NCBI RefSeq assembly: GCF_900609055.1
Contig: NZ_UXAW01000091.1
Span: 1 to 33,815 of the forward strand
Reading direction: 5' to 3'
DNA: 33,815 bases
Source of the DNA: Pseudogemmobacter humi
GTDB taxonomy: Bacteria; Pseudomonadota; Alphaproteobacteria; Rhodobacterales; Rhodobacteraceae
The notes under the pieces are model-generated. The model ran no database searches. It saw only the letters and a program-made list of their open reading frames with translations, and was not told the origin of the DNA. Positions 26,131 through 29,485 of the stretch are shown one piece after another (within the stretch, counting starts at the first letter, position 1; the number at the start of each line of letters is the position of its first letter). The position numbers and the translations under genes are program-made.

Positions 26131-26159
26131 GTGACAGCGCGAAATTCCTTGCCTATGGT
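26131..26159 (+). promoter_or_regulatory. Sigma-70 promoter for the aro leader, placed for a leaderless transcript
   Basis: GTGACA (26131-26136) and TATGGT (26154-26159) are separated by exactly 17 nt, matching TTGACA/TATAAT at 5 and 4 of 6 positions. The expected start point (6-8 nt after the -10) falls on or beside the A of the leader-peptide ATG at 26167. The transcript would therefore be leaderless or nearly so, as reported for the rhizobial trpL leader. Confidence 0.7.
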
Positions 26160-26166
26160 CGCAGCC

Positions 26167-26241
26167 ATGTCGAACCGCGCCCTCTTTACCGCCGCCTATT
26201 ATTGGTTCTGCCGTTCCCGGCGGATGCGGTTGGCTGTGTAG
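26167..26241 (+). CDS. Aromatic leader peptide (24 aa) of an attenuator upstream of DAHP synthase
   Basis: The frame ATG to TAG encodes MSNRALFTAAYYWFCRSRR followed by MRLAV. The consecutive Tyr-Tyr-Trp-Phe codons (26197-26208) cover all three end products of the aromatic pathway, which is hard to explain by chance right before a DAHP synthase gene. There is no strong ribosome binding site; the promoter at 26131-26159 would start the RNA at the ATG itself. An intrinsic terminator lies 33 nt after its stop. Ribosome stalling at these codons would control read-through into the synthase gene. Confidence 0.78.
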   Translation: MSNRALFTAAYYWFCRSRRMRLAV

Positions 26242-26259
26242 GCGCGACGAAGCGACACT

Positions 26260-26307
26260 CCAGAAAACCCCGCAAGCCGCTGGTCCGACCGGCGGCTTTT
26301 CTTCTGG
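26260..26307 (+). terminator. Attenuator terminator between leader peptide and DAHP synthase
   Basis: AAGCCGCTGGT (26274-26284) pairs with ACCGGCGGCTT (26288-26298) around a 3-nt loop (11 bp with one G-U), followed by TTCTT, a classical intrinsic terminator inside the 5' region. A further CCAGAA (26260-26265) / TTCTGG (26302-26307) pairing can extend it. A competing antiterminator is possible: GCGGTT-GC in 26226-26234 can pair, with small bulges, with 26272-26280. A ribosome stalled at Tyr-Tyr-Trp-Phe would leave 26226-26234 free, while one at the stop codon would cover it. Confidence 0.78.
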
Positions 26308-26350
26308 AAACCCAAGCCCCGGCCGGCCCTCTGACAAAAGAGAGAGACCC

Positions 26351-27412
26351 ATGCCGACCGAGACCAACAACCTGCGCATCGCCGAATTGCGCCCCCTGCC
26401 CTCGCCCAGCGATCTCGCGCGCGACATCCCGCGCGACGAGGCGATGTCCGCGACCGTGGCCGCCAGCCGCGCGGCGATCCGCGACATTCTCTCCGGGCGC
26501 GACCCGCGGCTGCTGGTCGTGGTCGGGCCCTGTTCGATCCACGATCCCGAGGCGGCAATGGATTACGCGCGCCGCCTGATGGCCGAGCGCGAAAGGCTCT
26601 CGGACCGGCTGGAGATCGTGATGCGGGTCTATTTCGAGAAGCCGCGCACCACTCTGGGCTGGAAAGGGCTGATCACCGATCCGCATCTGGACGGCACCGA
26701 CCGGATCGAGGACGGGCTGCCGATGGCGCGGCAGCTGCTGGCCGCGATCACCCGGCTCGGCCTGCCGGCGGCGACCGAGTTCCTCGACCCGATCATGCCG
26801 CAATATTTCGCCGATCTGATCGCCTGGGGCGCGATCGGCGCGCGCACCACTGAAAGCCAGATCCACCGCCAGCTTGCATCGGGCCTGTCCTGCCCGGTCG
26901 GGTTCAAGAACGGCACCGACGGCGGCGTGCAGGTGGCGCTGGACGCGATCCGCTCGGCGGCGGGGCCGCATTCCTTCCCGGCGATCACCGCGGAAGGCCG
27001 CGCCGCCATCGCCCGCACCACCGGCAACCGCGACTGCCATGTCGTGCTGCGCGGCGGTGCTGCGGGGCCGAATTACAGCGCCGCCGACATCGGGCGGATC
27101 GCCGGTGCGGCAGCGAAGGCGGGCGTCGATCCCGGAATCGTGGTCGATGCGAGCCACGCCAACAGCGGCAAGGATCCGGCGCGCCAGCCGGCGGTGATCC
27201 ATGACATCATCCTCCAGATCCGCGCCGGTGAGCGGCGGATCCGCGGCGTGATGCTGGAGAGCAACCTGGTCGCAGGCCGCCAGGACGTGGTGCCGGGCCA
27301 GCCGCTCGCTTACGGCCAGAGCATCACCGACGGCTGCCTCGGCTGGGAGGACACGCGCGCGCTGCTGCATGATCTGGCCGAAGCGGCGACGGCCTCAGCC
27401 CGCGCCGCCTGA
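26351..27412 (+). CDS. aroG: 3-deoxy-7-phosphoheptulonate (DAHP) synthase, class I
   Basis: This 353-aa enzyme condenses phosphoenolpyruvate and erythrose 4-phosphate in the first step of the shikimate pathway. Class I (AroF/G/H-type) hallmarks are VGPCSIHDPEAAMDYA, MRVYFEKPRTTLGWKG, GARTTESQIHRQLASG, VGFKNGTDG and VDASHANSGKDP. Length is normal for the family. AGAGAGA precedes the ATG. Upstream lies an attenuator with a Tyr-Tyr-Trp-Phe leader peptide, so expression is probably tied to aromatic-amino-acid supply in addition to any allosteric control. Which of AroF, AroG or AroH it equals cannot be told. Its end overlaps the convergent nuclease gene by 18 nt. Confidence 0.95.
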   Translation: MPTETNNLRIAELRPLPSPSDLARDIPRDEAMSATVAASRAAIRDILSGRDPRLLVVVGPCSIHDPEAAMDYARRLMAERERLSDRLEIVMRVYFEKPRTTLGWKGLITDPHLDGTDRIEDGLPMARQLLAAITRLGLPAATEFLDPIMPQYFADLIAWGAIGARTTESQIHRQLASGLSCPVGFKNGTDGGVQVALDAIRSAAGPHSFPAITAEGRAAIARTTGNRDCHVVLRGGAAGPNYSAADIGRIAGAAAKAGVDPGIVVDASHANSGKDPARQPAVIHDIILQIRAGERRIRGVMLESNLVAGRQDVVPGQPLAYGQSITDGCLGWEDTRALLHDLAEAATASARAA

Positions 27413-28624
27413 GGCGCGCAGGAAGGTCAGGAACTCTTTCACGCCGGTCAGCCAGGGGCGCTGGTCGGCGTGGAAGGTCTGGTGCAGGGGCTGCGGCACC
27501 ACCAGACGCAGGTCATGCGCCTGCATCTCGGCCAGTTGCGCGCGCGAGATCGCGGGCTCCAGCGTCAGCAGATGCTTGACGCGGATGCGGTCGGCCTCGG
27601 CCAGAACCTGGCGCCAGCGGTCCTTGCAACTGGTCTTGACCGCCAGCATATGCAGCCGCCCGGCCGGGAAAGCGGGATCGGCATAGGCCGCCTCGCCCGG
27701 GAACAGGAAATCCGCCGCATTGCGCTTTTCGGTCGCCGCCTCGCGCTTGTGCGGGATGGCCCAGGCCTTCAGCAGCGCCTCGGTGTGATGGGCGAAGGCG
27801 TAGCCCGCGCGCGATTTGCGCCGGTTCTGCACCGTCAGCGAAAAGCCGAGGAACCCCGCCACATCGGCGCGGCCCGCGGTCATGAAGCCCCCGGCCAGCC
27901 GGTCGGTCACGACATGGCGCTCCAGCACGCGAAACAGCGCCTCCTCCTGCTCCATCCAGGCGATCAGCGCACCGTCGGGATCCGCCAGCGGATCGACGCC
28001 GGCCACGCTGTCACGCGCGAAGGCGGAAAACACCGCGGTCGACGGGAAGCCCGTGCCGAAGCGGCGGATCAGGCGCTCGGCGGCCTCGGGCTCGGGCTCG
28101 TCCGGCTCGATCCCGAGTTCGCCCAGGATGAACCGCGCGGCGAGGTCGATGCCGCGATCTCCGGCCGCGCCGATGCTGAGCGTGTAATCGTCGGTCAGTT
28201 GCAGACCGAACAGCCACAGGAGTTTCTGCTCGGCCGAACTCGCCGCCGGGCAGAGGATCGCCAGCACCCGGCGCGCGGGCGTCATGCACAGGAACAAAGT
28301 GTCGCCCGCCCGGGCGTGCCGCACCACCGGATGCGCCGCGGCGGGGTAGTAAAGCCGGTATTCCGGCGCGCGATGCGGCTGGCGCTGGCGGCTGTTGTAC
28401 CAGGTGCCGGTCAGGTCGAGCCGCAGCGGCGGGGACAAATCGTCCATCCAGATCCAGGTGACCGGGATCTTCTCGCGCGCGGGCGGCGTGCCGACGAAGG
28501 TGCGGAACAGGTCCACCCCCTGGAATTCGTGCCCGTTCGAGGTGGCGGGATCGACCTCGGTCGCGCGCAAAACCTTGGCCCCCGCCCCGAGGAAATAGCG
28601 CGAGAGCGCCCCCTTCGCCGCCAT
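27395..28624 (-). CDS. EcoRII-type (type IIE) restriction endonuclease
   Basis: This 409-aa protein spans both EcoRII domains. The N-terminal effector DNA-binding (B3-like) domain is about 1-165, and the C-terminal PD-(D/E)xK-type nuclease domain about 190-400. The catalytic region reads ADFLFPGE (D305), then VKTSCKDRWRQV (K330 and following) and LAEADRI, close to EcoRII as I know it; nothing obvious is broken. EcoRII cleaves CCWGG, though specificity here is only inferred. Its ATG overlaps the Vsr stop by one nt (TGATG), so translation is coupled. The cognate methyltransferase gene two positions upstream is badly deleted, so this nuclease may be unopposed locally. Confidence 0.88.
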   Translation of the reverse strand: MAAKGALSRYFLGAGAKVLRATEVDPATSNGHEFQGVDLFRTFVGTPPAREKIPVTWIWMDDLSPPLRLDLTGTWYNSRQRQPHRAPEYRLYYPAAAHPVVRHARAGDTLFLCMTPARRVLAILCPAASSAEQKLLWLFGLQLTDDYTLSIGAAGDRGIDLAARFILGELGIEPDEPEPEAAERLIRRFGTGFPSTAVFSAFARDSVAGVDPLADPDGALIAWMEQEEALFRVLERHVVTDRLAGGFMTAGRADVAGFLGFSLTVQNRRKSRAGYAFAHHTEALLKAWAIPHKREAATEKRNAADFLFPGEAAYADPAFPAGRLHMLAVKTSCKDRWRQVLAEADRIRVKHLLTLEPAISRAQLAEMQAHDLRLVVPQPLHQTFHADQRPWLTGVKEFLTFLRASGGAG

Positions 28625-29076
28625 CAACTCGCCCCGATGTCGATGAGCGCCTCGTCCGAGCGCAGCCAGGCGGCGAGGCTGTCCGCGACCTCGGCCACGT
28701 CGCGCCGCCCGCGGCCTTTCAGCGCGCATTCCCAGACCTGCGCCACCCGCCAGCCGAGACCGCGCAACGCCGCCAGTGTCCGCGCGTCGCGGCTCATATT
28801 GCCGCCGATCTTCGCGCGCCAGAACTCGGGGCGGGTCGCGGGCCAGCGGAACAGATCGCAGCCGTGGCCGTGCCAGAAACAGCCATGGGCGAAGATCACA
28901 GCGCGGTGTTTGGGCAGCACCAGATCGGGCCGCCCCGGCAGCCGCCGGTCCTGCAACCGGAAGCGGAAGCCGCGCGCGTGCAGCGCCTTGCGGATCAGGA
29001 TCTCGGGCCGGGTGTCGCCGCCCCTGATCGCCGCCATGTTGCGGCTGCGGGTGGCGGGATCGTGAACGTCAGCCAA
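28624..29076 (-). CDS. vsr: Very short patch repair endonuclease Vsr
   Basis: This 150-aa protein aligns closely with E. coli Vsr by eye (MADVHDPATRSRNMAAI, LPGRPDLV, HGCFWHGHGC, WRVAQVWECALKGR). It nicks 5' of T in T:G mismatches that arise when 5-methylcytosine of a Dcm-type site deaminates. D51, H64 and H69, and the zinc ligands C66, H71, C73 and C117, are all present. The E. coli T63 is Ala here, which may be tolerated since I recall metal contact there through the main chain. It overlaps the methyltransferase remnant by 8 nt and the nuclease by 1 nt. Confidence 0.93.
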   Translation of the reverse strand: MADVHDPATRSRNMAAIRGGDTRPEILIRKALHARGFRFRLQDRRLPGRPDLVLPKHRAVIFAHGCFWHGHGCDLFRWPATRPEFWRAKIGGNMSRDARTLAALRGLGWRVAQVWECALKGRGRRDVAEVADSLAAWLRSDEALIDIGAS

Positions 29077-29485
29077 GTCTGCGCGCCTTTTGCGTCCCCG
29101 CCATCACCGTCAGGTCAGGCGGCAGCATAGCGCGGGCGGGGTCTGCCAAGGCCGGCACCGCGACGGAATAGCCGAACCGGCGGCAGGCCCGGGTGTCGGA
29201 AACCCGGCCGTCCTGGCCCAGCAGCCGCGCGCCTTCGCGGGGCGTCAGGCGGCGCATGCCGCAGGATGGCAGCCTCAGGCCGCCGCCCCCGGCGAACAGG
29301 TCGATACAGGTGAAACCTGGAAAACGGCGTCCGGCTTCGGCCGTCAGCAGCGCCATGACCGCGCCTTGCGGGCTTTCCTTACCGGGTTTCCGGCGGCAGA
29401 TATCGCCCTCGCAATAGCCGGGATGCCGCGCGGCCCCGGCCACCGACCAGCCCGCGCGCTTCGGAAGGCTGTCGTATTCGGTCAT
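29069..29485 (-). pseudogene. Dcm/M.EcoRII-type cytosine-5 methyltransferase, internally deleted
   Basis: Only the two ends of a C5-methyltransferase remain in one 138-codon frame. Motif I, the SAM-binding DLFAGGGGLR (62-71), runs directly into the C-terminal motifs MRRLTPREGARLLG and SDTRACRRFGYSVAVP (motif IX/X; canonical QFGNSV has Asn where Tyr stands here). About 250 residues are missing, including the catalytic PC motif IV, ENV motif VI, motif VIII and the target-recognition domain, so it cannot methylate. The junction is near 29272 and stays in frame, which preserves coupling to vsr. A full gene would be about 400-470 aa. Confidence 0.85.

Follow-up and report, generated by a model that had tools for sequence, protein, structure and literature searches.

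A predicted leaderless attenuator with tyrosine, tryptophan and phenylalanine codons upstream of the type I-alpha DAHP synthase gene of Pseudogemmobacter humi and related proteobacteria

The DAHP synthase gene and its leader region

The stretch of DNA analyzed here (the window) comprises 33,815 nucleotides of a Pseudogemmobacter humi contig and carries a DAHP synthase gene preceded by a promoter, a short open reading frame and a terminator (Table 1). The preliminary description had named a class I DAHP synthase downstream of the terminator, and this was borne out by profile matches above cut-off to TIGR00034 (aroFGH, 484 bits) and PF00793 (295 bits). As regards the feedback type of the enzyme, the Phe-sensitive AroG of E. 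coli ranked above AroF among the structure matches, and PRK12755 ranked first among the NCBIfam models. A class II DAHP synthase is encoded in the same genome (G000 C131:34781-36091, locus L090). No aromatic frame was present in the 330 nt upstream of the class II gene, and a loose hairpin with some T behind it lies about 210 nt before that gene. The other PF00793 match of the genome, a 284-aa frame (L002), is presumably KdsA. As the class II enzyme is also encoded, we regard the type I-alpha gene as an additional, patchy gene; it occurs in seven of 13 congeners and in 17 of the 394 genomes of the family sample. Its product might supplement the class II enzyme according to demand.

Table 1. 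Features of the type I-alpha DAHP synthase locus in the window
Feature	Position	Strand	Basis
-35 element GTGACA	26131-26136	+	promoter-like site search; GACA at -34 to -31 from the leader ATG prominent in Rhodobacteraceae
-10 element TATGGT, 7 nt before the leader ATG	26154-26159	+	direct reading and promoter-like site search
Leader ORF, 24 codons plus TAG (26239-26241), predicted leaderless	26167-26241	+	direct reading, relatives compared
Control codons Tyr-Tyr-Trp-Phe (TAT TAT TGG TTC)	26197-26208	+	direct reading; aromatic run in 128/139 loci
Region 1, left arm of 1:2 hairpin (right arm 26218-26224)	26207-26213	+	fold, pair counts
Region 2, CCGGCGG, resembles right arm of terminator; partner 26277-26283	26217-26223	+	nascent-RNA fold, pair counts
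Second part of antiterminator; partner 26270-26274	26225-26229	+	nascent-RNA fold
Region 3, left arm of terminator	26274-26284	+	fold, pair counts
Region 4, right arm of terminator	26288-26298	+	fold, pair counts, terminator search
Remainder of T-rich terminator tail	26299-26305	+	direct reading, terminator search
Shine-Dalgarno-like GAGAGAGA of enzyme gene	26340-26347	+	read by eye
Type I-alpha DAHP synthase (AroFGH family), 353 aa	26351-27412	+	profile matches, structure matches

The promoter elements are separated by 17 nt, and GTGACA-17-TATGGT was the only promoter-like site found between 26030 and 26420 (shuffles of this stretch: mean 0.0, sd 0.1). The predicted start point falls on the ATG of the 24-codon frame with its Tyr-Tyr-Trp-Phe codons, which could be read directly as the preliminary description had claimed; the translation is MSNRALFTAAYYWFCRSRRMRLAV. 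The 11-bp terminator hairpin that had been described was likewise found at 26274-26298 (loop of 3 nt, -18.1 kcal/mol), and the T run said to follow it is present in an interrupted form (TTTTCTTCT, with the last two stem bases included). Taken alone, this terminator is close to chance, with one found versus 0.6 expected from shuffles. The fold of the whole leader was slightly better than that of shuffles (z -1.96; 7 of 200 shuffles equally good). An outer CCAGAA/TTCTGG helix around the terminator (26260-26307) would absorb part of the T tract, and a weak local hairpin of 4 bp reaches the Shine-Dalgarno-like stretch of the enzyme gene.

A restriction module adjoins the enzyme gene on the minus strand (window 27395-29485). 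It comprises an EcoRII C-terminal domain protein (27395-28729), a Vsr endonuclease (28624-29076) and a 138-aa frame (29069-29485) that is without a Pfam match and looks cut short; part of this frame holds what we take to be a resemblance to a cytosine methyltransferase motif.

Conservation of the leader and its start

Loci related to that of the window were drawn from overlapping sources: the best 80 of 592 confirmed stretches resembling the window enzyme in named genomes, the seven of 13 congeneric genomes with the enzyme gene, 17 of 394 genomes of a family sample, 14 of 385 genomes of a class sample, and the best 30 places of a phylum sample, in which 224 of 398 genomes had a match. The 142 oriented loci reduced to 138 distinct ones; addition of L104 gave 139, and L001, L002 and L090 were excluded. 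To be scored as a leader, a frame had to open with ATG no more than 330 nt upstream of the gene, span 8-45 codons and include four or more F/W/Y within seven codons. Such a frame was present in 127 of the 138 loci, and 111 had at least five aromatic residues in seven codons, as against 1.5% and 0.1%, respectively, of 13,800 trials with dinucleotide shuffles of the same upstream DNA. A chance origin of the frame was rejected on these numbers. With L104 included, 128 of 139 near-relative loci had the frame and 126 had both frame and terminator, and in 124 of the 126 CCGCC or CCGCT occurred together with GGCGG inside the terminator. These rates apply to near relatives, because the loci were chosen by their likeness to the window enzyme; frame and terminator were both present in five of 20 more remote loci, which were selected from the lower ranks of the phylum-sample list.

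The 11 loci scored as lacking the frame include four with thinner aromatic runs (L006, L015, L019 and L108) and one whose contig starts about 170 nt before the gene (L112); the others are L065, L067, L072, L077, L082 and L146. In L073 and L079 a frame was scored and no terminator was found, the frame of L073 being probably due to chance, and the terminator assigned to L135 appears misplaced. Where several in-frame ATGs were available, the shortest frame was used in the count of frame plus terminator and in the analysis of the leaderless start, a rule that probably sets the ATG 6 nt too far in for L004, L085, L087 and L088. The Rhizobium-type leaders of L006, L015 and L019 (MSFAHAYASRFYSYRCSQRRRACA and similar) have the same layout with a smaller number of aromatic codons than the related loci L120 and L124; the switch is perhaps decaying or re-tuned there.

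The preliminary description had spoken of a single group. It does occur in Rhodobacteraceae, but it extends well past them to rhizobia, Devosia, Xanthomonadales and Betaproteobacteria. Examples of the leader peptide are MTRTYAAFWYFFYPRHMADGGVSAF (Leisingera), MTQTYAAFWYFYAPSHKAAAGVCAF (Thalassococcus), MITVATSYFWYFSYDSSLAAGGSRSI (Bradyrhizobium), MNAAPTSFYWYYFPKPLAEEGLRSP (Stenotrophomonas) and MSFARAYFFFYFSYSSPTAVKSGKRS (Collimonas). The order of the aromatic residues is permuted between leaders and the run itself is kept. The taxon groups in which codons, Trp residues and start signals were counted are hand-made, and some of their members are without a name. All three aromatic amino acids are encoded in each of the 25 Rhodobacteraceae leaders. 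Trp codons, found in these 25, also occur in 17 of 18 leaders of the Xanthomonadales group, the exception being L117, a locus from the class search that is misplaced in the group; they are absent from 13 of the 17 leaders of the beta group (L044-L076 in part and L145; Herminiimonas, Collimonas and relatives). The later residues of the peptide track the RNA: the second half of the frame contains a near-invariant GGCGG that resembles the right arm of the terminator. TTT makes up 243 of the 301 Phe codons in the aromatic runs but 85 of 731 in the adjoining enzyme genes, a preference that fits either slow codons or an unstructured stretch. When relatives were compared for frame and hairpin, as the preliminary description had proposed, frame, aromatic run, promoter spacing and terminator thus all recurred, and it is this conservation that raises the finding above chance.

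An SD-like motif (AGGA, GGAG or GAGG at -20 to -4) preceded one of 98 non-redundant leaders, whereas 88 of the 98 enzyme genes behind them had one. The Rhodobacteraceae leaders show GACA and the -10 element at constant distances from the ATG: the -10 could be scored in 17 of 21 non-redundant rows, and its distance was 7 nt in 12 and 6 nt in three of them. Spacing and lack of the motif together make a leaderless translation start, as predicted both here and in the preliminary description, probable. Leaders of the beta group had no SD-like motif and a promoter spacing that is not clearly leaderless. Because the position of the promoter is less clear in the beta and other groups than in Rhodobacteraceae, our claim for those groups is limited to the lack of a Shine-Dalgarno sequence. 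At least one alphaproteobacterium is rich in leaderless mRNAs: 375 have been reported for Caulobacter (PMC4117421).

Alternative folds of the leader RNA and specificity for the gene

Folding in silico yielded the classical alternatives 1:2, 2:3 and 3:4. Nascent RNA was modeled up to position 26286, with a stalled ribosome masking about 10 nt downstream of its A site. With the A site at Y11, Y12 or W13, one and the same antiterminator structure of -30.2 kcal/mol was obtained, consisting of region 2 and the second antiterminator part with their respective partners (Table 1); with the A site at F14 the value was -24.7 kcal/mol. With the ribosome at the stop codon the antiterminator could not form (-3.0), and without a ribosome region 2 was held in the 1:2 hairpin. 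The preliminary description had proposed a pairing of 26226-26234 with the left terminator arm. A pairing that competes for this arm was found in the nascent-RNA fold, but the proposed position was abandoned in favor of 26217-26223 mainly, plus 26225-26229.

Over 126 loci, the mean probability that region 3 of the nascent RNA pairs upstream was 0.65-0.68 with a stalled ribosome; it was 0.16 for a ribosome at the stop codon and 0.50 when no ribosome was present. Once region 4 was made, the terminator was on average the more stable structure in every ribosome position (mean probability 0.77-0.96), with 0.77-0.84 when the leader was masked as by a stalled ribosome versus 0.96 at the stop codon. 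Because the completed terminator is more stable even in the stalled state, the switch would have to be kinetic. Compared with shuffled linkers, upstream pairing of region 3 was 0.65 versus 0.53 in one stall state (103 of 126 loci above the mean of their own shuffles) and 0.68 versus 0.54 in the other (113 of 126). The locus of the window is unexceptional in this respect, with 0.53 versus 0.64 for its shuffles in one stall state and 0.72 versus 0.65 in the other, where 12 of 30 shuffles were as high. The statistical support that such modeling lends to the 2:3 pairing is modest, and folding alone is no proof of a switch.

Pair counts were obtained from close relatives. Region 2:3 was paired in 70 of 70 cells over ten of them, the window locus included, and its covariation is weak, as five of the seven pairs are invariant and 190 of 500 shuffles equaled the observed score. 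The terminator (3:4) was paired in 110 of 110 cells at ten loci. At ten loci of the window's clade the 1:2 helix was paired in 87% of cells; six of its seven pairs are retained in relatives, the innermost is confined to the window, and one compensatory change was seen (U-A in six rows, C-G in four). Over 44 loci one pair of the terminator is G-C in 29 and A-U in 14. Pairing of leaders with their own terminator arms scored 17.6 compared with 16.9 for the arms of other loci, and the own value was at least the median in 110 of 126 loci; the contrast is small, since the arms resemble one another so closely.

A covariance model of the stretch from the aromatic run to the terminator (R1), built from 44 loci, was run against genomes of the genus and family, with scoring limited to the best 150 or 23 candidates per genome. 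Among 13 congeneric genomes it exceeded 64 bits in precisely the seven with the enzyme gene. Strong matches (E 3.5e-14 or better) were found in nine of 149 family genomes, each just upstream of the enzyme gene. All other matches were weak (at most 31.1 bits in the genus; in the family, E values of 1.6e-6 or worse), and most of these cover the terminator half only, the whole model being matched in four of 18 in the family. Since four of the seven strong congeneric matches are training rows and the other three close relatives of one, and eight of the nine strong family matches are training rows, the matches test place and exclusiveness and not sensitivity. No Rfam 15 family reached its gathering score in the window or at the equivalent place in 20 related loci. 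The best matches below threshold were sroD (23.3 of 50 bits) and BjrC1505 (RF02356; 19.1 of 50 bits); membership in the latter was rejected on this score, and two Bradyrhizobium loci gave no gathering-level match either. In Stenotrophomonas pavanii, a tandem glycine riboswitch (L074:3461-3667) is located downstream of the DAHP synthase gene and on the opposite strand.

Proposed mechanism, alternatives and comparison with known systems

The leader combines a run of codons for products of the pathway, an intrinsic terminator, a 1:2 hairpin (in the window's clade) and an antiterminator predicted in silico, features that characterize attenuators. We consider it highly probable (roughly 0.9) that the element is a ribosome-mediated transcription attenuator before the DAHP synthase gene, working by the mechanism that the preliminary description had put forward. 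That a real supply-sensing switch is involved appears very probable because the same arrangement recurs in many related bacteria. From the parts, their conservation and the folds we infer the following steps. RNA polymerase would start at the A of the leader ATG or at most one base away from it. A ribosome would load on the leaderless end of the RNA. When the tRNAs for Tyr, Trp and Phe are charged, it would pass the Tyr-Tyr-Trp-Phe codons to the stop codon and cover region 2, so that the 3:4 terminator forms and the enzyme gene is left untranscribed. When any of the three amino acids is short, the ribosome would stall on these codons and cover region 1, leaving region 2 available for pairing with the left terminator arm (2:3), and transcription would proceed into the DAHP synthase gene. 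The evidence supports this reading of attenuation by three aromatic amino acids, but the claim that the switch gates entry to the shikimate pathway was overstated: a class II DAHP synthase is also encoded, without such a leader, and the switch therefore does not gate the whole pathway.

Four other explanations were weighed. The predicted terminated leaderless small mRNA of about 135-140 nt could act mainly in trans, as RNA or peptide, with attenuation in cis being secondary. Its predicted leaderless build resembles that of trpL of Sinorhizobium meliloti, whose products rnTrpL and peTrpL act in trans (PMC7298713, PMC10117765). Nevertheless, we judge this improbable, as the peptide outside the aromatic run varies by lineage, its later part follows RNA region 2, and strong R1 matches were found only before the enzyme gene among the best 150 or 23 candidates per genome. 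That the terminator is constitutive, the small frame accidental and the gene served by a promoter of its own further downstream would agree with the near-shuffle level of the window terminator taken alone (1 versus 0.6); the joint presence of frame and terminator in 126 of 139 loci and the lack of a second promoter-like site up to 26420 make this very hard to maintain.

Any terminator-bearing 5' leader could in principle contain a riboswitch or T-box; here it would bind tRNA or an aromatic amino acid, and the small frame would be a bystander. This is highly unlikely given that no Rfam family reached its gathering score in the window and the 20 related loci, and that conservation within the leader RNA is concentrated mainly at the start and aromatic codons, in region 2 and in the terminator. 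Control of enzyme translation in place of transcription was considered because leader and gene would share one transcript and the weak 4-bp hairpin touches the SD-like stretch of the enzyme gene. However, this stretch lies outside the competing helices, and in 126 of 139 loci the gene is located behind a T-tailed hairpin, which leaves such control with very little credence. Transcription attenuation is thus the reading that we prefer.

DAHP synthase supplies all three aromatic amino acids, and one leader reading the three cognate tRNAs would act as a simple OR gate at the committed step. The element is found in three proteobacterial classes, where it would explain short unannotated frames, and its predicted leaderless start would offer a natural system in which attenuation proceeds without a Shine-Dalgarno site. 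It is conceivable, with chances that we hold to be evenly balanced, that one ancestral attenuator lacking a Shine-Dalgarno sequence has been kept with the type I-alpha gene across Alphaproteobacteria, Xanthomonadales and Betaproteobacteria, that it senses all three end products, and that lineages re-tuned its sensing by rewriting codons. Against this reading, two of five extra leaders whose class is unassigned (L149 and L159) have a beta-like frame with Trp. Because the codon run differs between lineages, a switch of effector would be open to testing by codon swaps.

Ribosome-mediated attenuation, leaderless trpL and leaders that sense several amino acids are already known kinds of regulation. 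The E. coli trpL and pheL leaders share the 1:2, 2:3, 3:4 logic and likewise encode a leader peptide containing control codons, but they are SD-led and respond to one amino acid each. Sensing of more than one amino acid by a single leader is found in ilvGMEDA and thrABC, which differ in being SD-led and in reading branched-chain amino acids or Thr/Ile. The E. coli enzymes AroF and AroG are subject to feedback inhibition. Their genes are repressed by TyrR (PMC11878033), and an attenuator has been hypothesized for E. coli aroF (cited in PMC8632094).

Among the top-ranked matches in the open-access literature, a scope outside which the survey of proteobacterial attenuators by Vitreschak et al. 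(2004) falls, we found no description of a leaderless element reading three aromatic amino acids. A small-frame attenuator, uORFC-13-1, has been predicted before a DAHP synthase gene, Acholeplasma aroF; it has an RBS, a U run coding for Phe and another structure, with 24 examples in Acholeplasma and environmental DNA (PMC8632094), whereas the leaders described here have a mixed aromatic run, lack an SD-like motif and belong to other taxa. In two species of another taxon, Vibrio, attenuators have been predicted at a type I-alpha DAHP synthase gene within the tyrA operon (aroA-I-alpha-Y > tyrA; Merino database, PMC1173090 Table 7). From the same order as Pseudogemmobacter, uORFC-8-2 is a predicted ribosome-mediated attenuator before cysS of Rhodobacterales, with Cys codons and an aminoacyl-tRNA synthetase gene downstream (PMC8632094). 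The leaderless trpL transcript of S. meliloti, also an alphaproteobacterium, starts with the leader ATG, as is predicted here, and the element resembles it in having codons for products of the pathway and a terminator (PMC10117765, PMC7298713). There, however, consecutive Trp codons precede trpE(G), whereas here a single Trp codon stands together with Tyr and Phe codons before the DAHP synthase gene.
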